The notes under the pieces: generated by a model
Told to the model about the DNA's origin: nothing
Database searches by the model: none
Seen by the model: the letters and a program-made list of their open reading frames with translations, nothing else
Program-made: the position numbers and the translations under genes
Shown: positions 18,456 to 47,700 of the stretch, piece after piece
Layout: every line of letters starts with the position of its first letter
Position numbering within the stretch: position 1 is the stretch's first letter
Assembly: GCF_900101595.1 (NCBI RefSeq)
Contig: NZ_FMYY01000004.1
Location: 248,001-312,000, forward strand
Length of the DNA stretch: 64,000 nucleotides
Direction: 5' to 3'
From: Paenibacillus sp. cl123
GTDB taxonomy: Bacteria; Bacillota; Bacilli; Paenibacillales; NBRC-103111

Positions 18456-18472
18456 AAAGCGGGTTATCCAGA

Positions 18473-18499
18473 GCTGCCGGCATTGCGCCGGCGGCTTTT
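18473..18499 (+). terminator. Terminator after the large beta-helix gene
   Basis: GCTGCCGGC (18473-18481) pairs with GCCGGCGGC (18487-18495), with one G-U pair, a five-base loop and four T residues after it. It lies 17 bases after the stop. Confidence 0.65.
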
Positions 18500-18551
18500 G
18501 GATTTTCGGCGGCTCCGGGAGCGTGTTTGAAAGCTGGCCGGGAACTGCTAT

Positions 18552-18573
18552 TTTTGTCTCCAGGCGGACAAAA
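18552..18573. promoter_or_regulatory. Dyad upstream of the GH35 gene, possible operator
   Basis: TTTTGTC and GACAAAA form a perfect 7-bp inverted repeat with an 8-base spacer, about 140 bp before the GH35 start. It has the size of a repressor or activator operator; the binder is unknown. Confidence 0.35.
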
Positions 18574-18713
18574 GTTTAAAAATCACACAGCCTGTGCGCA
18601 CAATTGTCGAACATGAGGACTTTCTGTGCTGCCGGGTTGAAGTGGACAATATAGACAAAGCTGCACAGCCGGCGATAAGCCGGCGACTAACGACAAAAAC
18701 AGGGGGAACAACG

Positions 18714-21200: not shown

Positions 21201-21232
21201 TCGGTTCACATTAACCGGATGGAGGGAGTCGG

Positions 21233-23572: not shown

Positions 23573-23580
23573 ACAAATAG

Positions 23581-23643
23581 GCCGGCATGACATCCCGGCG
23601 AAGCTTGGCTCCTCCAAAAAGCTTCGCCGGCTTCCGTGCCGGC
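23581..23643 (+). other. Nested hairpin after the AraC gene
   Basis: An inner 12-bp perfect stem, CCGGCGAAGCTT (23595-23606) with AAGCTTCGCCGG (23619-23630), is enclosed by GCCGGCA (23581-23587) and TGCCGGC (23637-23643). No T-run follows, so it may be an atypical terminator or an mRNA-protecting structure. Confidence 0.55.
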
Positions 23644-23839
23644 CTGTCCATGCCGCCGACCGGGCTGCGTATATGCCTGGCTCAGAGGACAAATATGCAG
23701 GAATCATATGCCAACCAAGACAAAACCGGATTTTTCACACTGTTCCCGTGGCTGCGGAATCAGGCATGATGGCTGTACGCGGAAAATGGAGCGCTTACAT
23801 CCCCATGTCCGCGATACAGGCAAAGGGAGTGATGAAAGG

Positions 23840-25798
23840 ATGGAAAAGGTTTGGAGACAGGCGGGTTGGTTAGGTATGGCGATTGTATTCTTATGGTCTG
23901 CGGCGGCATTCGGCATTCCGCCTGCGGCGCAGGCAGCGGGAGCCTATTACGTGGCTCTCAATGGAAACGACAGCTGGTCAGGCACGCTGGCAGCCCCGAA
24001 CAGCGGCGGGACGGACGGTCCCTTCCGCACCCTCGCCAAAGCCCGCGATGCGATGCGGACGGGGACGACCAAAACCACCCTCATCCGTGCCGGCACCTAC
24101 TACATGACCTCCACGCTGGTGCTGACGGCAGCGGACAGCGGTACGAAGTACCGGGCTTATGACGGGGAAACCGTCATTCTGAGCGGAGGGGAAAGGGTGA
24201 CCGGCTTCGCAGCGGAGGCAAACGGCATTTATGCCGCTTCCTTGCCCACTCCCACCGACATGGAGCTGATTTTCGACGGCGCCCGCCAGCGGATCGCCGA
24301 GAAAAAAGCTTATGACGCCGCAAGCCCCTACACCTACGGTCATTCCTTTGCCGCCGCCAATACGGACATGAACAAGGTCAAATTCAAGGCGGCGGAAGTT
24401 ACGGCGGCCGATTATGCGCCCCATCTGAAGGTGGAGACCTTCGCCGTCCGCCGCTGGGAAAATGATCTCCTGAACGTCACCTCCATCGATGTCGCCAATA
24501 ACTTGCTGAATCTCTCCGGCAACGTCCGCTACGTTATTTCCACCAATGGCACCTATCGCCTTCTGAACAATCCCGCCTATCTGGATGAAATCGGCGAATT
24601 CGCCTACCGGGCCTCCGACGGCAAGCTGCTGTTCAAGCCCTCCGACAGCGCCAAACTGCTAAGCCAAGGGGCAGTGGTCCCCCGCAGAACGATCCTGTCT
24701 CTGGACGGAGCCGGCCAGGTGGTGGTGGAGCGGCTTACCTTCTCCGATACGCCTTACGCTCTGCCTGCCATTGAGCTGAAAAATGGCTCCAACGGCAACG
24801 GCTTTTACAATAACAGGTTTCTGAATGTGGGCAAGGGCCTTATCCTCACCGGCTCCGCAAGCAATAATGTAAACCATAACGAAATGGCCCAAATCGGCAC
24901 TACCGGCGTGGAGCTGGCTTACGGGGCGGACGCCAACGCTGTCAACTGGAATTACATGCATCATATCGGCTTGGTCAAAAAAAATGGCGGCGCCGTGATG
25001 GCTTACGGCGTCAAGAACAACCGGATTGACCATAACCGGATCGAATATACAGCCCGTTACGGAATTTCCATCAAGCGCTGGGACGCAGCGACCATCCATA
25101 CCGGCAATACGGTGGAATACAACAAAATCCGCTTCACCAACCGGGAAACCCAGGATACCGGCGCCATCGAAATGCTGGGCCGGGGGGGCAACGATACGGA
25201 CACGATCATCCGCTACAACTATATTGAGGATACCGGCGGACGCATGAGCGACTGGACCAATCCGTATTTTCAATATCCTTACGGGGCCGACGGCATCTAT
25301 CTGGACGATGAAACCAGCGGCGTGGAGGTGATCGGAAACTTTATCAAGGATCACAGCCGGGCGGCTGTGTTCGTTCATGGCGGGGACAACAACGTCATCC
25401 GCAATAATGTAGGCATCATCGGCCGGACCATCTGGAAGGGGCTGGGCCATGAGGACGGCAAGGACAAATTCGTCCGCCTGGAATGGGGAACTACCCAGCA
25501 TGTTCCTTCCAATACGGTTATCGAGAAGAACATCATTTATTCCAAAACCTCCGCTTGGCCCAAATATCTGGATTTCTTCACCGGCGGAACCTATACCAGC
25601 GACTGGAATGTGCTCTATCAGGTACCCAAGATCAGCGGCAAGGATGCCAATTCCATAGTGGCGAACCCGCTGTTCGTAAGCCCCTCCTCCAACAACTACA
25701 AGCTGCAGGCTGGGTCTCCGGCCTTCGCTCAGGGCTTCGTGGAGCTGCCTTGGACCGAATGGAGCACCGTGCATTCCTTGGCCGGCATCCAGCCTTGA
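23840..25798 (+). CDS. Secreted right-handed beta-helix protein
   Basis: The 652-residue product has a signal peptide cleaved near AQAAG (about residue 34) and starts its mature part with YYVALNGNDSWSGTL, the opening of many PL9-like and DUF1565-type parallel beta-helix proteins. Repeated N-x-I/V coils run from about 250 to 560. It is probably a polysaccharide lyase or an epimerase-like carbohydrate protein acting outside the cell. Aspartates such as those in GIYLDDETSG (about residue 490) could serve catalysis or calcium binding, but I cannot assign them. The ATG at 23840 is favoured by the GGGAGTGAT site and by giving a clean signal peptide. It lies between the AraC regulator and the second transporter. 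Confidence 0.75.
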   Translation: MEKVWRQAGWLGMAIVFLWSAAAFGIPPAAQAAGAYYVALNGNDSWSGTLAAPNSGGTDGPFRTLAKARDAMRTGTTKTTLIRAGTYYMTSTLVLTAADSGTKYRAYDGETVILSGGERVTGFAAEANGIYAASLPTPTDMELIFDGARQRIAEKKAYDAASPYTYGHSFAAANTDMNKVKFKAAEVTAADYAPHLKVETFAVRRWENDLLNVTSIDVANNLLNLSGNVRYVISTNGTYRLLNNPAYLDEIGEFAYRASDGKLLFKPSDSAKLLSQGAVVPRRTILSLDGAGQVVVERLTFSDTPYALPAIELKNGSNGNGFYNNRFLNVGKGLILTGSASNNVNHNEMAQIGTTGVELAYGADANAVNWNYMHHIGLVKKNGGAVMAYGVKNNRIDHNRIEYTARYGISIKRWDAATIHTGNTVEYNKIRFTNRETQDTGAIEMLGRGGNDTDTIIRYNYIEDTGGRMSDWTNPYFQYPYGADGIYLDDETSGVEVIGNFIKDHSRAAVFVHGGDNNVIRNNVGIIGRTIWKGLGHEDGKDKFVRLEWGTTQHVPSNTVIEKNIIYSKTSAWPKYLDFFTGGTYTSDWNVLYQVPKISGKDANSIVANPLFVSPSSNNYKLQAGSPAFAQGFVELPWTEWSTVHSLAGIQP

Positions 25799-25826
25799 GG
25801 AGGAGAAGAACTTTTAACGATCCTAT

Positions 25827-25919
25827 TTTCATACACTTGACCGGTTCCTGCACACATCCTCCTGAGGGCGCATACAGCTTCTCCTGATTGATACATGCTC
25901 CAAACCTTAATTTCATACA
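25827..25919 (+). promoter_or_regulatory. Paired TTTCATACA motifs before the second transporter
   Basis: TTTCATACA occurs at 25827-25835 and again at 25911-25919, 84 bp apart (eight helical turns), in the 202-bp gap before the permease gene. It partly resembles the TTTTCATGTATA end of the 5.1- and 8.7-kb boxes. This could be a regulator-binding pair or chance. Confidence 0.25.
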
Positions 25920-26000
25920 AAGGCTGATTTTTCGGACTTTTCCGGAGGGAGCCGGTTTGGCATGATAAGGGGGCAAGGAGCAAAGGGAAGGGGGGACAAC

Positions 26001-26972
26001 ATGGAACGCATTTTGAAACCGGCGGCGGGAAGGGCGGAGGTCCCGAAGAAAGCTTCGCGGCTGGTCCGTGAGTGGAGGCATCTGAAAAAAAACATCGAGA
26101 TGATCGGACTGATCTCTCCGGGGCTTTTGTACATCATCATTTTCTCCTACCTGCCTATGTTCGGGATCGTGCTGGCGTTTAAGCAGTATCGGTTTGACAA
26201 GGGTATCTGGGGCAGCGAATGGGTGGGACTCCAAAACTTCACATTTTTTTTCGTATCCGAGGATGCCTGGCGGATTACACGCAACACGGTGGCCTACGAG
26301 CTGGGCTATATTTTTCTGACCACATTGTTTGCGCTGCTGTTCGCCATTTTGCTGAATGAAATCAGCAGGAAAAGCACAAAGATTTACCAGACGGCACTGT
26401 TTTTCCCTTATTTCCTGTCCTGGGTGGTGGTCAGCTATATCACCTATGCTTTTTTGGATCATCAGACCGGGTATCTGAACACCATTCTGGGCTGGTTTGG
26501 CGCGGAGCCGCATAAGTGGTTTCTGGAAAAAGAACCGTGGCCGATCATTCTGAATGTGGTCAGCTTGTGGAAAAAGGTAGGCTTCTCCGCGCTGGTGTAC
26601 TACGCCGGGATCATGGGCCTCAACCAGGAGTATTATGAGGCTGCGCGGATGGACGGGGCCAGCCGCTTCCAGATGGCGGTCAAAATTACAGTGCCGTTGC
26701 TTGCGCCGCTCATTACGATTCTCCTGATCCTGTCGATAGGAGGCATCTTCAACGGGGATTTCGGGCTGCACTACTTTATTCCCAACAACGCCGGCATGAC
26801 TTATCCGACTACGGATATTATCGACACGTATGTGTACAGGGCGCTGCGGAGCGTAGGCGACGTGGGCATGTCAGCGGCCGTGGGACTGTATCAATCCATC
26901 GTCGGGCTGATCCTGGTGGTGGCCGCCAATGCGGCAGTACGAAAGCTGGATAAGGAAAATTCACTTTGGTAG
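26001..26972 (+). CDS. Sugar ABC transporter permease (LplB type), transporter 2
   Basis: The 323-residue permease has six helices, the marker IIFSYLPMFGIVLAFKQY and the EAA loop EAARMDGASRFQMAVKITVP. It imports an oligosaccharide with the next two gene products. The ATG at 26001 has an AGGGAAGGGGGG site, so it is preferred to the ATG at 25962. It is clearly a paralogue of the 8787 permease but not a recent duplicate. Confidence 0.9.
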   Translation: MERILKPAAGRAEVPKKASRLVREWRHLKKNIEMIGLISPGLLYIIIFSYLPMFGIVLAFKQYRFDKGIWGSEWVGLQNFTFFFVSEDAWRITRNTVAYELGYIFLTTLFALLFAILLNEISRKSTKIYQTALFFPYFLSWVVVSYITYAFLDHQTGYLNTILGWFGAEPHKWFLEKEPWPIILNVVSLWKKVGFSALVYYAGIMGLNQEYYEAARMDGASRFQMAVKITVPLLAPLITILLILSIGGIFNGDFGLHYFIPNNAGMTYPTTDIIDTYVYRALRSVGDVGMSAAVGLYQSIVGLILVVAANAAVRKLDKENSLW

Positions 26973-26987
26973 AAAGGGGAGAACCCT

Positions 26988-27881
26988 ATGCGCAACGCCA
27001 TGCAACCACATCGCATTTCGCAGGCGGTCATTCATGTTCTTTTCACTCTGGTCACCTTGTCCATGGTTCTGCCCTTTCTGCTGGTGGTATCCATTTCCTT
27101 CAGCGCGGAAGCGGAGCTTATCAGCAGCGGCTACTCGCTTTTGCCCAAGGTATTCAGCATGGAAGCATACCGCCTCGTGCTGCAAGCCCCCAAGGCTATC
27201 CTTCGGGCCTACGGGGTAACGGGTACGGTGACTGTCGCCGGAACCTGCTTAGGGCTGCTGCTGACCGCGATGACCGCTTACGTCATTTCCAGGCAGGATT
27301 TCCGGTACAACCGGATCGGCACCTTCATCATTTTTTTCACGATGCTGTTCAACGGCGGTCTGGTACCCTCCTATATTCTGATGACGCAGGTGCTTCATCT
27401 GAAGGACACCTTATGGGCGCTGATTTTGCCGGGGATGCTGACTCCGTTCAATATTATGGTTATGAAGGGCTTCCTGGGCAAAATACCCGGGGAGATTGTG
27501 GAATCCGCCAAGGTGGACGGAGCCCGGGAGCTGACGCTTTTCTTCCGGATTATTTTGCCCTTGGCGACGCCGGCTTTGGCTACCATCGGCTTGTTCATCT
27601 CCTTCGGATTCTGGAACGCCTGGTTTCCCGCCATGCTCTACATTGACAATCCTAACCTGGTGCCTCTGCAGCTGATGCTGGTCCGCATTATGGACAACAT
27701 CGAGTTTATGACCCAGAACGAGCAGATGCTTGCGCAAATGGGCGCAGCGCCTCAGGATTTCCCGGCGTTGTCCGCCCGGATGGCGATGGTGATTTTGGCT
27801 GCAGGCCCCATGCTTCTTGTCTTTCCGTTCTTCCAGCGGTATTTTGTGCAAGGATTGACGGTAGGGTCGTTAAAGGGGTGA
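26988..27881 (+). CDS. Sugar ABC transporter permease (YtcP type), transporter 2
   Basis: This is the 297-residue partner permease, with six helices, the EAA loop ESAKVDGARELTLFFRIILP and the conserved C-terminal QRYFVQGLTVGSLKG. It lies 15 bases after the first permease gene with an AAAGGGGAG site. No ATPase gene is present, as with transporter 1. Confidence 0.9.
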   Translation: MRNAMQPHRISQAVIHVLFTLVTLSMVLPFLLVVSISFSAEAELISSGYSLLPKVFSMEAYRLVLQAPKAILRAYGVTGTVTVAGTCLGLLLTAMTAYVISRQDFRYNRIGTFIIFFTMLFNGGLVPSYILMTQVLHLKDTLWALILPGMLTPFNIMVMKGFLGKIPGEIVESAKVDGARELTLFFRIILPLATPALATIGLFISFGFWNAWFPAMLYIDNPNLVPLQLMLVRIMDNIEFMTQNEQMLAQMGAAPQDFPALSARMAMVILAAGPMLLVFPFFQRYFVQGLTVGSLKG

Positions 27882-27998
27882 CACTGCGGCAGGTCGCAAG
27901 CGAGGCATGCGCTTGAAAGGGGGATTGGCTTCGAGAGTTTTGCTGGATCCATGAAGTCATGAACAAGTAAAATACATGAAAAGGGGAGGTTGTTTTCC

Positions 27999-29507
27999 AT
28001 GAATGTGATTAAAAAACGAATATATTTCGGTATGATCGCGGCCAGTTTGGCTTTGACGGGTTGCGGCGGCAACAACAGCGAAAGTCCAGCTGCAACAAAT
28101 GAATCGGCCGCGCCGTCTGCGGCAGCTTCTTCGGCCAGCACCCTGCCTCCGGCTGATCTGGTATGGTATTATCTGGACGGGACGGCGCAGCCTGATCTGG
28201 CCTCGGTGGAAACGGAGGTTAACAATTACATCAAGCCCAAGCTCAACGCCACCGTGAAGCTGAAGCCCATCGCCGGCTCGGATTACGAACAGAAGATGAA
28301 TACGATTCTGGCAGCGGGAGAAGCCTTTGACATCGTCTGGACCTCGGACTGGAGATTCAACTTCAGCTCCAATGCCCAGAAGGGGGCTTTCCTGGAGCTG
28401 GACGCCCTGCTGGATAAAAACGGGGCCAAGCTAAAGGCAAGTCTGCCTTCCTCTGCGTGGGACGATGTCAAGATCGGCGGCAAAATCTACGGCGTGCCCA
28501 ACTACCAGATTGCGGCCAAATCCGCCGGCTTTGTCATCCAGAAGCGCTTTGCCGACAAATACAAGCTGGACACCGCCAAGATCAAAACGTATAAGGATAT
28601 CGAACCGTTCTTTGAAGAAATCAAGAAAAATGAGCCGGGCATCATTCCTTTCGGGCTTAATAATGATTTCTACTCGCCGTCTGTGTACGGATTAAGCAGC
28701 CATGGCAATGTCATCTCCTACCAAGTAAACGGCGGCAAAGTGGAGGTGGAAGATTATTTCGCCACGGCGGCGTACAAGAAGCATGTAACTATGGCCCATG
28801 AATGGTATACGAAGGGCTACATCAACGAGGATGCCTCCACTTTGAAGAACAAGGCTGATGTGGAGAAAAAGGGCGTTTACGCCACCACCTTCGACTTCAC
28901 CCAGAAGCCGGGCGGCGAAGCTGCCGCCAAGGCAGGCAACGGAGGCAACGATGTGATTTTTGTGCCGCTTATGGAACCGGAATTTACCGGCGTGACAGCT
29001 ACCATCTCGGCCATTAGCCGCACCTCCAAAAATCCGGAACGGGCTATGATGCTCCTGGAGCTGGTAAACACCGATCCGGCCCTGTACAACCTGCTGTCCT
29101 TCGGCATTGAGAACAAGCATTATACCAAAACCGGCGCCAACACCATCAAGGATATTGCCGGCGGCGGCTACGCGCCCAACATGAATTGGGTGATGGGCAA
29201 TGTGACCATCGGTTATCTGATGGACGGACAGGCGCCAGACACCTGGGAGCGGACCAAGAAGGCCAACGACACAGCGAAAAAGCCTTATCTGTACGGCTTC
29301 AAATTCAACAGTGAGCCGGTTAAGGCGGAGATGGCCAATCTGAAGGCTGTGGAAAATGAGTTCCGCAAGGTGATCGAAACCGGAACTGTCGATCCGGAGA
29401 AATATTTGCCCCAATTCCTGGACAAACGCCTCAAAGCCGGTTCCGAAAAGGTGCTGGCGGAATATCGGACGCAAATCGAAGCATTCTTGAAGACCAAGGC
29501 CCAATAA
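27999..29507 (+). CDS. Extracellular sugar-binding lipoprotein of ABC transporter 2
   Basis: The 502-residue protein has a lipoprotein signal with LTGC (Cys22), a Ser/Ala-rich linker and a family-1 solute-binding fold. Segments ILAAGEAFDIVWTSDW and the 'VYGLSSHG' region are typical of this class (often annotated DUF3502-containing). The ATG at 27999 is preferred to the TTG at 27990 because AAGGGGAGG sits nine bases upstream. It is the last gene of the transporter-2 operon and ends before the repeated purine-rich terminator element. Confidence 0.88.
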   Translation: MNVIKKRIYFGMIAASLALTGCGGNNSESPAATNESAAPSAAASSASTLPPADLVWYYLDGTAQPDLASVETEVNNYIKPKLNATVKLKPIAGSDYEQKMNTILAAGEAFDIVWTSDWRFNFSSNAQKGAFLELDALLDKNGAKLKASLPSSAWDDVKIGGKIYGVPNYQIAAKSAGFVIQKRFADKYKLDTAKIKTYKDIEPFFEEIKKNEPGIIPFGLNNDFYSPSVYGLSSHGNVISYQVNGGKVEVEDYFATAAYKKHVTMAHEWYTKGYINEDASTLKNKADVEKKGVYATTFDFTQKPGGEAAAKAGNGGNDVIFVPLMEPEFTGVTATISAISRTSKNPERAMMLLELVNTDPALYNLLSFGIENKHYTKTGANTIKDIAGGGYAPNMNWVMGNVTIGYLMDGQAPDTWERTKKANDTAKKPYLYGFKFNSEPVKAEMANLKAVENEFRKVIETGTVDPEKYLPQFLDKRLKAGSEKVLAEYRTQIEAFLKTKAQ

Positions 29508-29874: not shown

Positions 29875-31263
29875 CTAATACACAGAGATGCGCGCCCCCG
29901 AGGCCAAGCGGGCGGCGACATCCTCAGCCTGCTCCAGATTGGACCAGAACAGCTTCAGCTCATGCCTCAGATGATCCAGCTCCCGGATAGGCAAGTTCAG
30001 ATCCTCATAGCGTCCGTACGTAGGTACGATCTCCCGGTATACATGATATCTCGCCGGACGGTAGCCCTTCTCCGGCCCCGTCCATTCGGCGGAAGGCTTA
30101 TGCGCCGGGATGCTGAGCGTATGCTGCCGGATATGCAGCTGGGCGGCTTCTTGGGTCAGGAACTCAACCAGCTGCCGGGCAGCCTGCTTGTGCGGAGATT
30201 GGCGGCTGATGGCCAGCCCGGTAACCAGCAGCAGCGTTTTGGCGTTTTGCTGGTAGGGCAGCGGGGCCAAGTCATACTCAAACGTCGCGTCCTGCAGAAA
30301 TCTCAAGCTGTAATAGGTCGTCATCAGCATCGCCGCCTTGCGCGACACGAACAGCTTCTCCGCATCGGCATCCGATTCCGAGAGGAAGGACGGGAACAAA
30401 TCTTGTCCGTAGATCAGATCGCGAAAGCTTCGCAGGCTCTCCCACATCCTCGGATCGTCATACTTGTACCCGCTGTCCTGGCGTTCGAACCGGAAGCTGT
30501 TCTGCAGCAGCACGATCGGAAACCGGTTGGTCGAAGCGATGTGAGCGTAGAAGCCGATCGTATCATGCTCCTGCTTCAGCCGGACCGATAGATCGGCCAG
30601 ATCCGACCAGGACCAGCTGCTGTCTGGCTCCGGTATGCTCAGCTCGCGGAACAAGCTTTTGTTATAGCAAAGCACGACGGGCGAGAAGATGAACGGCCGA
30701 GCGTAGGACATGCCTTCATGGGCGAATACGGACGACAGAAACGAATAATGCTGAGGGTCGGTTTTCACAGGCTCGAACAAATCAAGCGCTCCGCTTTGGG
30801 CAGTCTCGAGAAAGTTCCAATTGTTGAGGGAAATGACGTCCAGCCAGCCATTGTCCAAATATTCGCGGATCGATTCCGGATATTGGGTGTAAGGCAGCGG
30901 CAGCGTATCCACCTTGACGTGCGGATACAGCCGTCCGAATTGCTTGAGCAGCTCGCGAAGATCGGTTTCTCCTTCCAGGGAAGGGTAGTAGCCGAGTCTT
31001 AGGGTGAGCTGAGGAGCGGCGGTTTTGGGTCCTATGATTTTATTGCCGACGCGGTGCTCCTTGACGATCAAGCCCTCGGCAACCAGCACGTCGAGTCCCT
31101 TGCGCACGGATTTTTTGCTCAGCTTGTACTGATCCGCGAGAGCCATCTCGGAGGGCAGGTATTCCCCGGCAGGTCGCTGCGCATTCTTGATTTCGCGGCG
31201 CAGGGAGGTGATCATGTCGTCCAGCCGGGACTGGAACGTAATCCGATCTGGTCTATTACTCAT
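29875..31263 (-). CDS. GntR-family regulator fused to a solute-binding-protein-like domain
   Basis: The 462-residue product has a GntR winged helix (about 12-78; YLPSEMALADQYKLSKKSVR is the recognition region) and then a long domain (about 90-440) that reads like a family-1 extracellular solute-binding protein (LRELLKQFGRLYPHVKVDTL; 'SWSWSDLADLSVRLKQ'). There is no signal peptide or membrane helix, so the sugar-binding fold must work in the cytoplasm as the effector sensor. The ATG at 31263 has an AAGGAG site. It is divergent from the cohesin-SLH gene and convergent with transporter 2. It probably controls the scaffold genes, itself, or both; a dyad lies in the shared intergenic region. Confidence 0.8.
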   Translation of the reverse strand: MSNRPDRITFQSRLDDMITSLRREIKNAQRPAGEYLPSEMALADQYKLSKKSVRKGLDVLVAEGLIVKEHRVGNKIIGPKTAAPQLTLRLGYYPSLEGETDLRELLKQFGRLYPHVKVDTLPLPYTQYPESIREYLDNGWLDVISLNNWNFLETAQSGALDLFEPVKTDPQHYSFLSSVFAHEGMSYARPFIFSPVVLCYNKSLFRELSIPEPDSSWSWSDLADLSVRLKQEHDTIGFYAHIASTNRFPIVLLQNSFRFERQDSGYKYDDPRMWESLRSFRDLIYGQDLFPSFLSESDADAEKLFVSRKAAMLMTTYYSLRFLQDATFEYDLAPLPYQQNAKTLLLVTGLAISRQSPHKQAARQLVEFLTQEAAQLHIRQHTLSIPAHKPSAEWTGPEKGYRPARYHVYREIVPTYGRYEDLNLPIRELDHLRHELKLFWSNLEQAEDVAARLASGARISVY

Positions 31264-31300
31264 GTGAAAACTCCTTGTCTGTAGACGGTCGATTAAAGGT

Positions 31301-31306
31301 AGTATA
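31301..31306 (-). promoter_or_regulatory. Extended -10 element of the gntR-like gene
   Basis: Read on the minus strand the sequence is TGGTATACT, an extended -10 (TGNTATACT) about 40 bases before the ATG. It lies within the short dyad GGTAGTATACC. Confidence 0.45.
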
Positions 31307-31434
31307 CCATAAATTTCTTTTTTACTACACAAGGGAACTACAAAGGAACCAGAGGAACGAAAAATGGCGAATAATGAGTGAAAATGGTGGATTCAGACGA
31401 AAAAAGATAGAAATAATGCGCTTACAAAAAAACG

Positions 31435-31585: not shown

Positions 31586-33436
31586 TTGGGCAAAGAGAGG
31601 TGCTCCCTCGTTGTTGTCGCCGCATTGCTAGGGGGGCTGCTTATTCCGTCTTCCAGCTCAGCCGCTGAAGGGTCGATCCGTCTAATCCCGGAGGCCGGCC
31701 GCATCGCTAACGGCACAGAAGTCACGATCCGCATCACCGCGGAACAGGTTCGGGATTTGTACGGCATCCAGTTCCGTCTGCAGGCCGATCCGGATATTTG
31801 GCGGTATGAAAAACACGCCATATCCGGCCGCTACACGGAGTTTGCCTCTCCGCAGCAGAGCGGGGAGACGGGAGATCGCGCATTTGCGCTGATCCGCAGA
31901 AATATCGGCGACATCTCCGAGCAAGCGTCTGCGGAGATCGCCAGCATAACCTACAGAGCCCGCATACCGGGCGTTTCGGAGATTCGTCTTCACGACGTGC
32001 TGGCGGTAAGCTCCGAAACTTATATAAACGAACACGGCAAAAAGGATTTATCCGTTCTTCCTCTCAGCGTCTCTCAGTCCGTCAAGATAGAGGTTAGCGC
32101 AGCGGGCGACGTCGAACCGCCCTCTCCTGCGCCGGGCTCCGCCGCCCCGTCCCCAATCGGGCCTTCCCGATTCGACTCCGAGCTGCAGCGGTTGACCGGG
32201 CTGCTAAGCGACCGGGAGCAAGCGCTGGCGCTGGCCAGGCAATTGATCCGCCGTACCGAGCTTGCGGCCGCTGCGGGCGAAGAGAACGGCCGCCGAATCG
32301 GCACATTGGACTCCGGCGAACTGGCCGATCGCCTGCGGCAGCTGCAGCAGCTGCAGAGGCTGCTGCGTCAGAACGGCTTGACGGTGCCGCTGTCGGTGAC
32401 GGTTCCGATGGAGCAAGGCTCCTTCGCGGAGGTAAGGCTGACAGCAGCCGACTGGCAGCTGCTCTCCGACGCGGGCGTCGATCTGCTGCTGGCTGCCGGT
32501 CAGATGGACTTGCGCGTGCCTGCCGGCTCCTTCCGCGCCCGGGAGGGCGAGGAGATCGCATGGACGGCAGAGCCGATATCCGCAGCAGCAGCGGCCGGTT
32601 CCGGCGATGCAAGCGCGGACTATATGCCGCTGACGGCTTATCGGCTGGAAGCGGAGGCCATTGGCGCCGACGGCAACCGCAAGAAGATTGCGGGCTTTGA
32701 CAAGCCTGTCGGCCTTGAGCTTCGCTATAAGCCGGGCGCTGGAAGGGAAGAGCTGCTTGGCCTGTATACGCGGGAGGATCGCGCAGACAACTGGACCTAC
32801 ATACCGGCGGGCAAGCAGGATACCGGCAGCGGCAGCTTCACGGCCGAGCTGGAGCATTTCAGCGAATATGCCGTCATCGAGTATGCGAAGCGCTACTCGG
32901 ACACGGCGGATGTATATGCCGAAGCGCGGAAGGCTATTGAGGTTCTGACGGCGAGGCATGTGATCGAAGGCGTGGACGCCGAGCGGTTCGCTCCCCGCCA
33001 AGCTGTGACGAGAGCGGAATTCACCGCGCTGCTGGTCCGTTCGCTGCAGCTGCCGCTTCCCGAAATGGCGGCTGCGGGCTTCGCCGATGCAGAGCCGGAT
33101 AAGTGGTACACCCGTTATATCCGCTCCGCCTTTGAAGCCGGATTGATCGAAGGAGACGCCGAAGGACGCATGAATCCCGAGGCCCCGATCACAAGGGAAC
33201 AACTGGCCGTCATGGCCGCTCGCGCCAGGAGCCTGATGCCAGAGCAGTCCCGCTCGCCGGAAGCGGCTTACACGCCATACGCCGACGACGCGCAGATCAG
33301 CGGCTGGGCTCGGTCTGCCGTATATGAAGCGCAGGCGAGCGGTCTTCTCGTCGGGATGGAGCAAAGCCGATTCGCGCCGCTTGCGGAGACGACAAGAGCC
33401 GATGCCGCTGTCTTTCTGCTCAGACTCGCCAAATGA
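31586..33436 (+). CDS. Surface-anchored cohesin protein with three SLH domains
   Basis: The 616-residue product has a signal peptide (cleavage near SSSAA, residue 27), a cohesin-like domain (about 30-170; TEVTIRITAEQVRDLYGIQF is the usual start), a Pro-rich linker (about 178-200), a helical middle region, a beta-rich region (about 265-430), and three C-terminal SLH domains (about 437-490, 498-550, 562-616) with TRAEF, TREQL and TRADA motifs. SLH domains bind the pyruvylated secondary cell-wall polymer; the cohesin could hold a dockerin protein at the surface. The start is TTG, with AAAGGAGGT eight bases before it. The next gene, 36 bases on, ends in a dockerin, which fits a paired anchor and ligand. 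Confidence 0.78.
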   Translation: MGKERCSLVVVAALLGGLLIPSSSSAAEGSIRLIPEAGRIANGTEVTIRITAEQVRDLYGIQFRLQADPDIWRYEKHAISGRYTEFASPQQSGETGDRAFALIRRNIGDISEQASAEIASITYRARIPGVSEIRLHDVLAVSSETYINEHGKKDLSVLPLSVSQSVKIEVSAAGDVEPPSPAPGSAAPSPIGPSRFDSELQRLTGLLSDREQALALARQLIRRTELAAAAGEENGRRIGTLDSGELADRLRQLQQLQRLLRQNGLTVPLSVTVPMEQGSFAEVRLTAADWQLLSDAGVDLLLAAGQMDLRVPAGSFRAREGEEIAWTAEPISAAAAAGSGDASADYMPLTAYRLEAEAIGADGNRKKIAGFDKPVGLELRYKPGAGREELLGLYTREDRADNWTYIPAGKQDTGSGSFTAELEHFSEYAVIEYAKRYSDTADVYAEARKAIEVLTARHVIEGVDAERFAPRQAVTRAEFTALLVRSLQLPLPEMAAAGFADAEPDKWYTRYIRSAFEAGLIEGDAEGRMNPEAPITREQLAVMAARARSLMPEQSRSPEAAYTPYADDAQISGWARSAVYEAQASGLLVGMEQSRFAPLAETTRADAAVFLLRLAK

Positions 33437-33472
33437 CACATATGGATACGTATGACATGAGGAGGGAAATCC

Positions 33473-36400
33473 ATGTTCAACCCCCGTTTGCGTAAGAGTA
33501 TGGCAGCCCTGTTATCCGCCGCGATGCTGACGTCGCTGCTGCTCGTTCCGGCAGGCGCGTCAGCGGCTGTCGAGGAACTTCCGGTAACGAACCCCGGCTT
33601 CGAGGAGCCGGTCCAGGGCAAATCGATCCCGGGCTGGACCAGCATGTTTGCCGTTACCGACGCAGTCTATTACGAACACTCGCTCGTCCGGAGCAGCAGC
33701 GGCGCAGGCAGCCTTAAACTCGTAGATACGCTGACCAACCAATCCGTTGCGCTGATGAGCGACAAGCTGCCTGTCACGCCGGGCATCTCCTACACGGCCG
33801 AAGCGAAGCTTTTCATCGAGAGCGGAGGCACGGCCAGTCTGAATCTGCGGTACTTCAACGCCAGCGATAAGTCGGTCGGGGAGCTTCCTTACCATGCCGA
33901 TCCCAATAAAGGGTTCACACGCGGGCAATGGAATCCGGTCGTCACCACGATGAAAGCGCCGGCCGATGCCGCATATGCCCGGATTATTGCCTATACGACT
34001 GCCTACAGCACGTCTACGGCTTATTATGACGACATTGCCTTCCGCTATGAGAAGCCCGAAGTCCACGCCGGATCGCTGGAGCTGACTGCGCCTTCCTCCG
34101 CCGTCAAGGGACAGGAAATCACCGCGACGGTCCGGGTGTCGGACGTAAAGGACTTATCGACGGTAGCCGCCAGCGTCTATTACGATAAGACCAGGCTGCA
34201 GGTCATGCAGGTGACGGCGGCAGGCGCTTTCGCCGGAGCGGATGCGACCTTCTCCGCCGTGCAGGAGGAAGGGGGCGTGAAGCTGAACGCCCGTCAGAAT
34301 GGCGCAGCCTTGAATGACGCGACGGATATCGCCGTCATTACCTTCAAGGTGCTCGGCGAAAGCGGCGGCGCTTGGGCGATGCTCGGCAAGGGAGCGGCGC
34401 TGAACGGCAGCGAAGCGCTCAAATCGGATCAGGTTGTGCTGATCCGGATCGGGAACGGGAACGAAATTCCAGGCGTAAACCTGTCCGAGATCAAGTTCGG
34501 CGAACCTGAATACAAGCTCGCGCCTATCGCTGACGCCGTTGGCGTTATGGATGGCGAAGCGGGGATCGAGGACGGCAAAAATGTCATGTATACGACCGTC
34601 AAGGGCATACCGCCGATGCTTCACGTCGTCGATCTGGACGATTACCAGCTCGTGCGGAGCCTTCCGCTTGAGGGCGGAGGCGAAGCCTGGAACCATGCTA
34701 TCGCTCCGGACGGCACCGTCTATCTGACCTCGGCCGGACAATTGTGGGCGTATTCGCCCGTCACCAAGCAGGCGGAGAAAGTATTTACGTTTGGCGGCGA
34801 AAGCACGTTCTGGTGTCTCGCCATCGATGAGCAGGGGATGGTCTACGTCGGCACCGGCCCCGGGGGCAAAGTGCTGAGGTATGATCCCGTCACCAAGCAA
34901 AGCCGGGATTACGGCCGTCTGATCACGGACGTCAATCAAGTGTACGTGCGTTCCATCGATTACAGCAACGGATACATTTACGCAGGTACTTCTCACAGCA
35001 AAGTGTATAAGCTGAATGTGGTGACCGGCGAGAAGGAGGAAATCGCCGCGTCCCTTCAGGAGAAGGGCTATGTGTACGATCTGAACATAGTGGACGACAA
35101 GTTCGTGATCGTGCGGTTCGACACGCCGCAGAAGCGTTATATCTACGATATCGAGCAGGGCAAGTGGCTGGATCTGGTGATCGAGAACAGCTCTTCGGGA
35201 CTTCAATTGCCCAAACAATCGTTAAACGGCAAAATTTATTTCCCGGCCGACAAAAAAATTAAAACCTTCGACGTTCAGACGCACGCGATCGAGGATTCCG
35301 GAATGGTCTATGAGACGGCTTTCCGCGGAGCCAACTGGGTGCAGGTCGATGATCCGGATCTTCCAGGCACAAGTCTTGTAACGATGAACTTTGCCGGCAT
35401 TATCGTATTTTTCAATCCGCAGACGAATATCGTGAAGAGATACAACAACCTGCTGCCGCCGAACGCGACGATTACGAATAAATTCGAAAGCGGACCTGAC
35501 GGCAAAATCTATGTCACCGGGATGCAGGCGTCGAAGGCGTCGGCCTACGATATCGCAACGAACACGGCGACGACATTCCCGATGGGGCAGGCCGGCGCGG
35601 TAGTTCCGTACGGCAACAAGCTTTATTTCGGGGTATATCCCGGCGGAGATATTTTCGAGTACAATCTGTCGGAGCCAGTTGGAGCAAACAATCCGAAGCG
35701 GCTGTTTTACCTGCATCACGATCAGGATCGCATCGGGGCAAAAGCGGTTGGCGACGGCAAGATTTACTTCGGTTCCGTAGCTACGTACGGGGCGCTCGGC
35801 GGAGCCGTCACCGTATTCGATCCTGCAAATCCGGATGTCGAGTCATCCTATCAGGTGTACCGGAATATCGTTCAGGATCAAAGTGTCATCTCGCTCGCTT
35901 ACCGGGACGGCAAGCTGTACGGCTCCACTAGCATCAACGGCGGAGTCGCCGCCGATCCGAAGGCGGATGAAGCGAAGCTGTTCGTCTGGGATACCGCGGA
36001 AGCCCGGAAGCTGACAGAAGTATCCCTGGATATTCCGGGCTTATCGAAGCCGCCGGCGATCGGTGGACTGGTTTTTGGTCCGGACGGTCTGCTATGGGGC
36101 GGAGCGAACGGGTATGTATTCGCTATGGACCCGGAAAGCCTGCGAGTGGTCAAATACCAGGAGTTCAATCCGCAGGATAACGGAACCGGCTTCAGATGGG
36201 GAAGCTTCCAGTTGAAGTTTACGAAGGAAGGGCTGCTGCTCGCCAATCTGGGCAAAAAGCTGTATGCAGTCGATCCGCAGACGCTGGAATCCAAGCTGCT
36301 CGTCGAGACGGAATCGTTCACAGTCGGGGAAGACGGCCATATTTACTACGCGCCTTCCGCCAACCGGACATTGATGTACCGGATCACGATCAATGCGGAT

Positions 36401-37012
36401 GCGCAAACCGCGGCTCCGGCCCGGCTGGATGTATCCGTCCCCGCCGAGGCAGGGAAGGGCGAGGAATTTACTGTCGCGCTGAAGGCGGCAGAAGCGAAGG
36501 ATCTGTACAGCATCCAAGCCGCGCTCAGCTATGATGCAGCCAGGCTGGAGCTGCTCGGAGTGGAGGCGGCCGGACCGTTCGCCGGCAGCAGCGGTTATCT
36601 GGGCTACAAGAAGGGCGCGGGCAGCGTCCGGATTACGGCGACCCAGCTGGGCGCAAACAAGGTTCAGGGCGATCACGATTGGGCGCTCCTCCGCTTCAAA
36701 GCGCTGGATAACCTGGGTACGGCAGAGATTCGGTTAAGCGGGGAATCGGTGACCGCATTCGCCGATGCCGATGAGACAGGCAAATTGTATCCGCTGGGCG
36801 ATGACCTGGTCCGTACAGTGACGATTAAGCGAAGTGTGGCGGAGGATGTCAACGATGACGGCCGGGTCGATCTGATCGATGTCGTCACGGTGGCGAAGCT
36901 GGTCGGAGCGGCGGTGAACGACACTAACCGCGCGATGGATATTAACGGAGACGGCCTGCTGGATGTGAAGGATGTAGGTTTGGTCGTCATGAAGATGTAC
37001 GAGGATAAATAG
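33473..37012 (+). CDS. CBM-cohesin-propeller-cohesin-dockerin surface protein
   Basis: The 1179-residue protein has a signal peptide (AGASA, about residue 31), a CBM4/9-like beta-sandwich (about 36-196; NPGFEEPVQGKSIPGWT), a cohesin-like domain (about 200-325), a long region of beta-propeller blades with DG-x-(I/V)-Y repeats (about 342-965), a second cohesin-like domain (about 980-1120) and a type I dockerin (1122-1179). The dockerin shows two calcium loops, D1125-V-N-D-D-G and D1156-I-N-G-D-G. I see no catalytic signature; propellers of this kind can be lyases or binding modules. With the preceding SLH-cohesin gene it could build a surface complex, and its own cohesins would let it chain. 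The ATG follows GGAGGGAA. Confidence 0.78.
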   Translation: MFNPRLRKSMAALLSAAMLTSLLLVPAGASAAVEELPVTNPGFEEPVQGKSIPGWTSMFAVTDAVYYEHSLVRSSSGAGSLKLVDTLTNQSVALMSDKLPVTPGISYTAEAKLFIESGGTASLNLRYFNASDKSVGELPYHADPNKGFTRGQWNPVVTTMKAPADAAYARIIAYTTAYSTSTAYYDDIAFRYEKPEVHAGSLELTAPSSAVKGQEITATVRVSDVKDLSTVAASVYYDKTRLQVMQVTAAGAFAGADATFSAVQEEGGVKLNARQNGAALNDATDIAVITFKVLGESGGAWAMLGKGAALNGSEALKSDQVVLIRIGNGNEIPGVNLSEIKFGEPEYKLAPIADAVGVMDGEAGIEDGKNVMYTTVKGIPPMLHVVDLDDYQLVRSLPLEGGGEAWNHAIAPDGTVYLTSAGQLWAYSPVTKQAEKVFTFGGESTFWCLAIDEQGMVYVGTGPGGKVLRYDPVTKQSRDYGRLITDVNQVYVRSIDYSNGYIYAGTSHSKVYKLNVVTGEKEEIAASLQEKGYVYDLNIVDDKFVIVRFDTPQKRYIYDIEQGKWLDLVIENSSSGLQLPKQSLNGKIYFPADKKIKTFDVQTHAIEDSGMVYETAFRGANWVQVDDPDLPGTSLVTMNFAGIIVFFNPQTNIVKRYNNLLPPNATITNKFESGPDGKIYVTGMQASKASAYDIATNTATTFPMGQAGAVVPYGNKLYFGVYPGGDIFEYNLSEPVGANNPKRLFYLHHDQDRIGAKAVGDGKIYFGSVATYGALGGAVTVFDPANPDVESSYQVYRNIVQDQSVISLAYRDGKLYGSTSINGGVAADPKADEAKLFVWDTAEARKLTEVSLDIPGLSKPPAIGGLVFGPDGLLWGGANGYVFAMDPESLRVVKYQEFNPQDNGTGFRWGSFQLKFTKEGLLLANLGKKLYAVDPQTLESKLLVETESFTVGEDGHIYYAPSANRTLMYRITINADAQTAAPARLDVSVPAEAGKGEEFTVALKAAEAKDLYSIQAALSYDAARLELLGVEAAGPFAGSSGYLGYKKGAGSVRITATQLGANKVQGDHDWALLRFKALDNLGTAEIRLSGESVTAFADADETGKLYPLGDDLVRTVTIKRSVAEDVNDDGRVDLIDVVTVAKLVGAAVNDTNRAMDINGDGLLDVKDVGLVVMKMYEDK

Positions 37013-37026
37013 CCTTAAGCAGACGC

Positions 37027-37055
37027 GCCCTCTTCCGGTTCCGGGAGAGGGCTTT
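37027..37055 (+). terminator. Terminator after the cohesin-dockerin pair
   Basis: GCCCTCTTCCGG (37027-37038) pairs with CCGGGAGAGGGC (37041-37052) across a two-base loop with one wobble, followed by TTT. Confidence 0.7.
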
Positions 37056-44691: not shown

Positions 44692-44791
44692 TTTATAGGC
44701 GAGCATGTTCCTCCGCAAGAAGGATGGTGTTGGGCTGGCTGAAGGCTTGTAGAACGTATCTTATTTTATTTTGAGGAATGAGGGATGTTTC

Positions 44792-47700
44792 GTGATCACT
44801 CTGCTAAGATCCAAAACGGTAAGCGTTTTGCTGTGTCTGCTCCTCATCGCTTCGCTGCTGCCGACGTTTGCGCCGGCTGCTGCAGCCGGTGATGCGGCAG
44901 CCGCCGGCGATACGCGGCTATTTTATGACAGCTTCGAGTACGGCAGCAATGTGGCGGTCCCCGTAGCCGCTCCGTCGCTCTGGACGCAGGACGGGGCGAA
45001 CGGAAGTCTGGTCAGAACGATAACGAGCGGCATGCACAGCGGCTTGTACGGCGTCAAGCTCGATGCGACGGATGCGCTGACGCTGCATCTGGCTACGACC
45101 GGCTACGAGGATATTCAGTTCAGCTATTGGTATAAAGCGGGCAGCGTCACGGCCGGCGGCGTCCGTGTGGAATATTCCGTGGACGGCGGTAACGCTTGGA
45201 CGGCGCTTGATCCGATCATGGCCAATCAAGGGACGTTCAAGCAGCGCTCCTATCAGTTGGCGGCTTCCGGACATGTCCCGGCCGGCAATCTCGATGAGCT
45301 GCAGATTCGCTTTCGGGTGGGCGGCGAGCAGACGCTGGCCGGTAACATCTACATCGACGATGTTGAGGTCAGAGGAAGAGCGTCCGCCGCTCCGCCGACC
45401 GACCCGCCGCTGCCTGATCCCGAAGGGCCGGAGCTGGAAATTTTCTCCGATTATTTCGATGATCCGGATAACTACGGCTCAACCGGGTCGGTCACGATTC
45501 CGTATCCCTGGAGTCAGGAAGGAGAAGGCCGCAGCGTCGCCAAAACCTCGGCGTCGGGCACAGCTCCTTCACTGCCGAACCTGGTGAAGATCGATTCGAC
45601 CGATGCGCTTGCCCTATCGCTCAATTTGACCGGCTACGGCAATATCAAGCTGAGCTACTACACGCGGGCGTCCTCCTATATAAGCGGCAGCATCGTAACG
45701 GAGTGGTCGGACAACGGCGGGGCGGACTGGACGACGCTGGAGGAATACAAGCTGCCTCCGGGCACGGCCGAGCAGAAAAACAGCGAGCCCAACCGGCTCA
45801 AATCCTGGACCTTGGGCGCTTCGGCCAACAGCAACAAGCAGGTGAAGCTCCGCTTCCGGGTCGGCGATCCGATGCAAGCCAATATGTATATTGACAGCGT
45901 GGTCGTAACCGGGCAGGCGATTCCGGGCATACCGCCGGCAGCCTCGCCGCTTCCCGACCCTCCGACAGAGCCGGAGACGCCGCCATTCACGCCGCCGGCC
46001 GGGGTTAAGCTTCATGAGGACGTGCTGATCGGAACAGCTGGCTCTCGGCCGATCTATACGTCGATCGCCGTGCCGGAGACGCCGCCGGCCGAGCCCATGC
46101 CGGTTATCGTCTACATTCATGGCGGAGGCTGGAATCACGGCGACCGCAAGCAGGCGCTGGGCAGCATCAGCAACTATGTGGCCAAGCGTGGTTATATCGG
46201 CGTATCGCTGGATTACCGGCTGACGCCGGAAGCGCCTTACCCGGCGCAAATACAGGATGTAAAGCTGGCGATTCGCTTCCTGCGGGCGCATGCCGGCGAA
46301 TATGGCATTGATCCGAGCCGGATCGGGGTATGGGGCTCGTCGGCCGGAGGGCATCTCGCGGCTTTGCTCGGCACAACCGGAGATTTAACGGCACAGGAGC
46401 AAGTAATGCTGGACAACGGACATCTGGTTGACGTACCCGATCTGGAGGGAAGCGGAGGCTGGCCCGAATATTCGACCCGGGTGCAGGCGGTAGCGGACTG
46501 GTACGGTCCGGCCGATTTTACGACGGCTTTCGCCGATCAGTACAGCTCGGTCACCGCTCTGCTCGGAGGCAAGCGCGCGCTGTCCGCGCCGGATGAAGCA
46601 AGACTGGCGATGCCTGGCACTTATGCGACGCCGGATGACGCGCCCATCTGGATCAGACACGGCGAGGCGGATTCGACGATTCCCTACGAGAATAGCGTAA
46701 AGCTGGCCAATCAGCTGATGGCAGCAGGCGTACCTGTCGTTGATTTCAAAACCGTGCCGGGTCAAGGACACGGGTTTACAGGAACCGCCTCAGAGGAGGC
46801 GAATGCCGAGGCTTGGGCTTTCCTGGACCAGCATGTCAAAAACAGGATCGTTACGACGCCGATTCTGTTCAAGCCGGGTTATCCGGGAGGAAACCCAGGC
46901 ACGGAGCCTGGAAGCGGACAGCCGAAGCCCGGTCCGGAGTCTATGACGCTGCAGCCCGCAAGCGCTGTGATGACGACAGGCGAGACGAAAGCGCTGACGG
47001 CGACCATCGCTCCGGCAGACGCCGATCCGGCCACAGTCACGTGGATAACGTATGACAGCGCTGTCGCAACGGTCGTCCCCACGGGACCGCTGAGCGCTGC
47101 AGTGACGGGAGTCGGCGCGGGGATGACGAAGATCCGGGCGACGGTGGCGGATGCGGTATACGCGCATGTCTATGCGGAGAGCTGGATTACCGTGCAGCAG
47201 CCGACTTCTCCGGGCGAGATCATCGAGACGGAGATAGCCGCTCTGCCGCCAACGGATGACGCCGCCGTTGACAGCAGCAAGCCGGATACGAACTTCAATG
47301 CCGCTACCGGCTCCAGCAACGGCCTGTTCAGCGTCTCCTCGGGCAGCACAAACAAAAAGTATGTGTATTTCGGATACGATATCTCGTCCTTCAGCGACCC
47401 GAACCATAAGTATATATTCCAGGTCGGGGCCAAAAAAGGCTCCACCAACACCGATGTCGAGCTGTCCTTGTACGGGGTGACCGCCGACGGCTGGTCCGAG
47501 AACAGCCTGACCTGGAACAATGCGCCTGTGACGGTTCTGAGCCCGCTGACGCCGCTCGGGACATTTACGGTAACGGCGGACAAAGGCTCGAATCCCCAGG
47601 TCTACAGCGTGGATGTGACCGATTATGTCCGGGGACAGCTTGCCGGGGGCAAGGTCGCCTTCCTGTTGGGCGATGCGGCCGGCACAGGGGTTTCGCTGAA

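Follow-up and report, generated by a model that had tools for sequence, protein, structure and literature searches.

The window analysed here is a stretch of 64,000 nucleotides from Paenibacillus sp. cl123, and the system in question is a pair of adjoining genes within it, gene 1 and gene 2, which encode a cohesin protein with surface-layer homology (SLH) domains and a propeller protein with two cohesins and a C-terminal dockerin (Table 1). The open reading frames (ORFs) of the window verified the coordinates of both genes, which share strand and frame and are separated by 36 bases, just as the preliminary description of this DNA had placed them, and AGGAGG stands close ahead of each start. 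Both products begin with a putative signal peptide, judged by eye. An imperfect inverted repeat directly after gene 2 (window ~37027-37052) looks terminator-like by eye and was unflagged by a terminator scan.

Table 1 Features of the two-gene locus and its divergent regulator, with window positions (aa, amino acids; HMM, hidden Markov model)
Feature	Positions	Strand	Evidence
Divergent GntR-type regulator fused to a solute-binding domain	29875..31332	-	Kept beside the propeller in 3/4 named relatives
Gene 1, putative secreted anchor: cohesin and three SLH domains, 616 aa, TTG start	31586..33436	+	ORF, Pfam, own profiles, fold search
Gene 1 anchor-type cohesin, residues 30-147	31673..32026	+	Own HMM 2e-17; leave-out profile 34.9 bits; fold match 2jh2
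Gene 1 three SLH repeats, residues 437-480, 499-541, 565-608	32894..33409	+	Pfam SLH 4.2e-24; own profiles
Gene 2: beta-sandwich, cohesin 1, double propeller, cohesin 2, dockerin, 1179 aa	33473..37012	+	ORF, Pfam, own profiles, model
Gene 2 N-terminal beta-sandwich, CBM_4_9-like via orthologue, residues 33-193	33569..34051	+	Structure model; orthologue match
Gene 2 cohesin 1, residues 201-317	34073..34423	+	Pfam, own profiles
Gene 2 tandem double beta-propeller, residues 333-978	34469..36406	+	Structure model, Foldseek
Gene 2 cohesin 2, chain type, residues 984-1101	36422..36775	+	Own HMM 8e-23; chain profile 64.7 vs anchor profile 36.3 bits
Gene 2 C-terminal dockerin, two intact calcium loops, residues 1123-1176	36839..37000	+	Pfam, own profiles, loop pattern

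Gene 1 had been described as a cohesin with three SLH domains, and both parts were recovered, the SLH repeats by Pfam and the cohesin, whose Pfam score is below the cut-off, by profile and fold. Against the 34.9 bits of the cohesin with a leave-out profile, the top of 200 shuffles reached 0.6 bits; this profile held 115 rows and excluded the window, P. lactis and DMB20 sequences, its rows having been collected by profiles whose first seeds included one gene 2 cohesin. For gene 1, AlphaFold2 gave a model that is weak overall (predicted local distance difference test score 54.6, six-row alignment). A Foldseek search with this model gave the Clostridium perfringens cohesin 2jh2 as top row (template modelling score, TM, 0.80 of target), and the best 50 of 83 rows (E <= 0.001) were all titled cohesin/cellulosome or SLH. 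Apart from gene 1 itself, a protein search that scored the 7995 best candidates gave three relatives (coverage 23-29% of gene 1), all three listed with Pfam SLH and without Pfam cohesin. With cohesin and SLH in one protein, gene 1 falls under the definition of an SLH-anchoring scaffoldin, its cohesin being assigned by profile and fold. Chance pattern reading of the domains was ruled out because profile and fold scores exceed the controls.

In gene 2, Pfam Cohesin matches two stretches (E 6.7e-19), and Dockerin_1 scores 22.7 bits versus a cut-off of 22.9 in hmmscan and 27.8 bits, above the cut-off, in the genome search. The dockerin has two canonical 12-residue calcium loops and, by loops plus the Dockerin_1 match of the genome search, counts as type I; the own-profile scan found no FIVAR domain ahead of it, as would be seen in the C. 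perfringens type. Since dockerin and cohesin share one chain, gene 2 is an adaptor scaffoldin by definition, and having two cohesins it is not monovalent. The cohesins, propeller and intact calcium loops of the preliminary description were thus recovered; its carbohydrate-binding module (CBM) was not, as the N-terminal sandwich of the gene 2 protein gave no Pfam match at E 0.1 and only the P. lactis orthologue matches CBM_4_9 (E 2.6e-6). Cohesin and dockerin matches across the pair are significant, with that of the gene 1 cohesin coming from profile and fold and not from Pfam.

The core of gene 2 was confidently modelled as a propeller, for which the best Foldseek rows were the BT4663/BT4673 sensor domains at low TM (0.2/0.3), a likeness of fold only. 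Forty aligned sequences share conserved Y/W/R/H/Q positions. The assignment of the propeller to a named enzyme was dropped, no Pfam or NCBIfam enzyme family having matched. The propeller matches seven places in this genome: it occurs with cohesin-dockerin in gene 2 and in two proteins on C30, two paralogues on C29 are fused straight to SLH domains, a paralogue on C25 has a C-terminal FIMAH match under threshold (18.3 versus 24.8 bits), and a 685-aa propeller ORF on C30 has neither dockerin nor SLH. The P. senegalensis propeller is likewise fused to SLH and adjoins the same GntR-type regulator (41% identical), and propeller-SLH fusions are also present in P0008, P0009, P0017, P0019 and P0020. 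The propeller would therefore often be placed on the wall by fusion, and here probably by plug and socket; one propeller with SLH, FIMAH-like or dockerin tails in a single genome offers a natural experiment on why a plug is used over a fusion. Also in this genome, a regulator of the GntR-solute-binding type lies directly upstream of an SLH-fused propeller paralogue (L100:3573-4964). The DMB20 propeller gene (L017:7935-11172) spans two overlapping frames and is apparently broken or mis-assembled.

By Pfam this genome has 6 dockerin and 15 cohesin places, and our own profiles found nine dockerin ORFs in its examined loci, 9/9 of which also bear a cohesin and five of which have FIVAR before the dockerin. 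Six of the nine lie within 500 bp of a cohesin-SLH ORF, a seventh is 3.2 kb off in the same cluster, and two have no anchor near (C11, with a cohesin-only neighbour, and C34, with none). Their cargos are heparinase II/III-like (four ORFs), GH59/30-like, a beta-helix with 3-keto-disaccharide-hydrolase-like domains, and propellers (three ORFs). Across 25 genomes of the genus Paenibacillus, Pfam places dockerin in 18 and cohesin in 20, and all dockerin genomes have cohesin (18 genomes with both, 2 with cohesin alone, none with dockerin alone and 5 with neither; Fisher p ~4e-4, by hand); at the level of the class, dockerin is found in 17 of 101 genomes (counting the present one), 14 of them with a single copy. 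In the first locus set our own profiles detected 74 dockerin ORFs, distributed over 16 genomes; some Pfam dockerins escaped these profiles, including those in G010 and G016 and one from G018. A cohesin precedes the C-terminal dockerin in 64/74, and FIVAR lies between the two in 26 of those 64.

These proteins come in three layouts. The window type has a cargo-cohesin-(FIVAR)-dockerin protein adjoining a one-cohesin SLH anchor; a second type has a cohesin-less dockerin protein adjoining a two-cohesin SLH anchor (six two-gene loci, L061, L062, L065, L067, L069 and L070, in G013, G014, G018 and G021); and in a third, a cohesin is followed after 14 residues by the dockerin and the anchor is not nearby (G002, G004, G008, G020, G023). 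Long cohesin-SLH proteins nevertheless occur at distant sites in G002, G008 and G023, and frames matching them in length, and by length only, are listed for G004 and G020, so that the lack of an anchor nearby does not mean the lack of an anchor. In the loci carrying the 15 Pfam cohesin places of this genome no ORF has more than two cohesins, a search that weak cohesins elsewhere would escape; a true cellulosome, with a scaffoldin of three or more cohesins, was accordingly rejected. Three SLH proteins of 2141-2337 aa (L026:7375-13800, L078:5054-12067, L096:6075-12950) each contain a single internal cohesin, and no dockerin ORF was seen in their vicinity; that of L026 also bears NAGPA and metallophosphatase domains. 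In G012, a cohesin-FIVAR-dockerin ORF (L059:16046-17290) is broken by one in-frame stop.

A same-strand dockerin ORF lies within 500 bp of 25/28 cohesin+SLH ORFs of the first loci, a count biased by the selection of loci through dockerin or cohesin hits. Taking only the genome-wide Pfam cohesins, 20/23 are near a dockerin in the first loci (21 counting a Pfam-only dockerin) and 0/6 in L079-L096, a total of 20/29 that leaves out ten further listed cohesin places. Distances among anchor cohesins and among their partner dockerins are correlated over 19 adjacent pairs (r 0.625, p 2e-4, 1 in 5001 by permutation), as are those of anchor and chain cohesins over 16 pairs (r 0.854), chain cohesins being those on the dockerin side. 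Paralogous loci within this genome, C15 (the locus in the window) with C30 and C10 with C32, are mutual nearest neighbours in anchor, dockerin and chain cohesin. These patterns fit a divergence of anchor and cargo together.

Based on this adjacency, the co-diversification and the propeller-SLH fusions, all of them patterns read from sequence, we propose with a probability of roughly 0.7 that the dockerin of gene 2 plugs into the cohesin of gene 1, giving a two-part wall-display module; the minimal SLH anchor of the preliminary description gains support from the same three lines. SLH domains attach proteins to secondary cell-wall polymer, and the exported gene 1 protein would hold this polymer through its three SLH domains and present one cohesin. 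The gene 2 protein, also exported, would bind that cohesin through its calcium dockerin, so that the propeller and the sugar-binding-like N-terminal domain would stand on the wall in a setting of polysaccharide uptake, most likely of a uronate-containing glycan. More tentatively, cohesins 1 and 2 of gene 2 might be left free for further dockerin proteins, either of its own kind or other cargos of the genome. The pair would then be one of several locus-wise anchor-plus-cargo sets in a distributed surface system of the genus that lacks a large scaffoldin. PS_pyruv_trans, for wall-polymer pyruvylation, was discarded as support for SLH binding: it has two matches here, and with 8/14 control genomes matching too it says little.

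Several observations weigh against the proposed plugging of gene 2 into gene 1. Linkage without binding can also yield co-diversification, and 8 or 9 of the 29 cohesin+SLH ORFs, mostly long proteins, have no dockerin neighbour. Next to the propeller gene, P. lactis and DMB20 encode a cohesin protein that lacks SLH, the neighbouring cohesin protein in L023 of this genome lacks it too, and for the propeller-dockerin ORF of sp. CC-CFT747 (L016) the locus DNA examined showed no cohesin, SLH neighbour or GntR-type regulator. The gene 1 cohesin is far under the Pfam cut-off (E 0.016, 15.9 versus 24.1 bits), and a single-sequence search with this cohesin alone returned no PDB sequence below E 0.5. 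Under a strict loop pattern, two loops were found in only 29/75 surveyed dockerin domains, so not all are textbook calcium dockerins.

A quick tree was built from 123 cohesins (126 columns, with 45/120 inner branches open). In it, the short SLH-borne anchors required 5 changes versus 18.9 when shuffled, and the dockerin-side cohesins mostly cluster apart. On the gene 1 cohesin the anchor profile reaches 43.9 bits and the chain profile 19.8, the reverse of gene 2 cohesin 2, and an anchor and the chain cohesin of its own locus are on average 28.8% identical. Among PDB sequences the anchor profile is nearest to cellulosomal adaptor/anchoring cohesins (3l8q 7.8e-10, 5g5d 1.4e-6; NagJ 4e-5) and the chain profile to the C. 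perfringens NagJ cohesin (2jh2, 1.9e-8). SLH-borne and dockerin-side cohesins thus appear to form largely two diverged groups; a dockerin fitting one therefore need not fit the other, and self-compatibility cannot be assumed.

This bears directly on the strongest competing possibility, a self-chaining scaffold in which the dockerin binds cohesin 2 (or 1) of other gene 2 copies and builds a polymer outward, for which we see somewhat less than even odds. Cohesin and dockerin in a single chain are the rule in the ORFs counted above, and a 677-aa ORF (L075:9249-11282) consists of two cohesin-FIVAR-dockerin units, with nothing further by four own profiles, making it a candidate for a pure linker. 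In the FIVAR group, to which the window does not belong, strand 3 has conserved outward-facing positions, which is what a functional binding face would lead one to expect, with D/E at the equivalent of C. thermocellum D39, which we take to function in that face, in 21/25 and T/S at 41 in 23/25. In the short-linker group of the window, however, position 39 varies (L in 25 and D in 11 of 44), and the three window cohesins read Q39/R41, A39/S41 and Q39/A41. The divergence of anchor and chain cohesins also speaks against self-chaining. Three genomes in which most cohesin-dockerin ORFs have no anchor close by (G002, G008, G023) had seemed to offer proof of self-pairing, an argument that was dropped because of their distant cohesin-SLH proteins.

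A little less probable is that partners come from other loci, forming a promiscuous, genome-wide surface network and not a locus-by-locus one. The coexistence in this genome of nine dockerin ORFs with five or more short anchors would permit this, as would the two dockerin ORFs without a near anchor, yet the locus-wise co-diversification, including the in-genome pairs C15/C30 and C10/C32, is against it. A wider reading, tentative and on balance unlikely, is a genus-wide display in which every polysaccharide locus has a socket (cohesin-SLH) and a plug (cargo-cohesin-dockerin) orthogonal to those of other loci, with one cohesin class fixing the first cargo and the other chaining cargos head to tail, so that expression and not a scaffoldin sets the length.

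It is more doubtful still that cohesin 2 serves as a structural buttress for the dockerin and not as a receptor, leaving the gene 1 cohesin as sole receptor. The analogy is the X module that stands ahead of type II dockerins, and the near-constant spacing is in its favor, as cohesin and dockerin are 14 residues apart in 25/26 short-linker ORFs of G002, G004, G008, G020 and G023 (overall 13-26 residues without FIVAR, and 87-104 with FIVAR in 25/26). The cohesin is nevertheless retained where FIVAR intervenes (26/64), polar surface residues of strand 3 are conserved in the FIVAR group, and cohesin 1 of gene 2 is distant from the dockerin. Finally, two independent proteins whose gene order reflects co-regulation only, with gene 2 held elsewhere or free, would suit the SLH-less neighbours in P. 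lactis, DMB20 and L023 and are improbable given the direct propeller-SLH fusions and the genome-level co-occurrence of dockerin and cohesin.

Several features hint at the substrate of the pair. Heparinase-type cargo is present on 4/9 dockerin ORFs of this genome. Because the divergent regulator carries a solute-binding domain, and because GH88 and heparinase II/III genes lie on the far side of this regulator in P. lactis, the glycan is most likely a uronate-containing polysaccharide. Elsewhere in the window, positions 13593-29507 resemble a polysaccharide locus (a CBM96/pectate-lyase-like protein, GH35, an AraC-type regulator, a beta-helix protein, two permeases and a DUF3502 protein), and positions 44771-51517 encode a 2248-aa SLH protein with BD-FAE-type esterase, CBM96, F5/8 C, pectate-lyase-like beta-helix and cadherin-like domains.

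Pairs of this kind had been called unusual in the preliminary description, which does not hold given the nine cohesin-bearing dockerin ORFs of this genome and an account of P. guangzhouensis in which the same kind, cohesin-dockerin proteins plus SLH-anchoring scaffoldins, is already printed (PMC11557425). Of the 35 cohesin proteins reported for that species, 28 have a single cohesin-dockerin pair, in many cases with an N-terminal glycoside hydrolase (GH); five SLH-anchoring scaffoldins are reported as well, and the authors propose docking into an enzyme-rich surface unlike conventional cellulosomes (PMC11557425). In its passages on these proteins, this one-species account is silent on gene pairing, co-diversification, cohesin groups and propeller cargo (PMC11557425), and in contrast to its monovalent adaptors the cargo in the window combines a double propeller and two cohesins. 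The open-licence literature searched gave no description of locus-wise cohesin-SLH/cohesin-dockerin pairs or of propeller cargo. The kind is known, and what is added here is the locus-wise pairing of anchor and cargo, the propeller cargo, the cohesin split and the genus-wide recurrence.

The Acetivibrio complex cellulosome is alike in that a cohesin-SLH anchor takes a C-terminal dockerin (PMC11557425), and differs in its multi-cohesin scaffoldin, which was not found in the loci examined here, and in that the Paenibacillus cargo bears its own cohesin. C. perfringens is described with five cohesin-GHs, five dockerin-GHs and one GH31 with both, its X82 cohesins being on enzymes (PMC12997984). Enzyme-borne cohesins, chain cohesins nearest NagJ and a FIVAR preceding the dockerin in many relatives are shared with it, whereas in Paenibacillus cohesin and dockerin in one chain are the rule and an SLH anchor often adjoins. 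More distantly, a non-cellulosomal cohesin-dockerin pair from an unrelated organism, Archaeoglobus fulgidus, was demonstrated to bind (PMC9705933), that non-cellulosomal pairing being the shared point, and ANME archaea are reported to have proteins in which a single dockerin is joined by as many as five cohesins, and for which surface attachment outside cellulose degradation was suggested; S-layer domains are fused there to dockerins, not cohesins (PMC9012536). The wall-bound pair proposed here combines features that, to our knowledge, the Archaeoglobus fulgidus cohesin/dockerin system does not have, namely an SLH anchor and a propeller.

Within Paenibacillus, the S1 protein of P. curdlanolyticus, formerly termed scaffoldin-like, is described as having neither cohesin nor dockerin (PMC6823336). 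A 2010 survey of Paenibacillus sp. JDR-2 reported four SLH+cohesin proteins, found no dockerin and left this unexplained (PMC2838879). If gene 2 does plug into gene 1, this puzzle of cohesin-SLH proteins without dockerin partners would become testable, the pairs would supply small natural cohesin-dockerin couples for surface display, and they would illustrate a way of arranging enzymes on the cell surface that needs no large scaffoldin.

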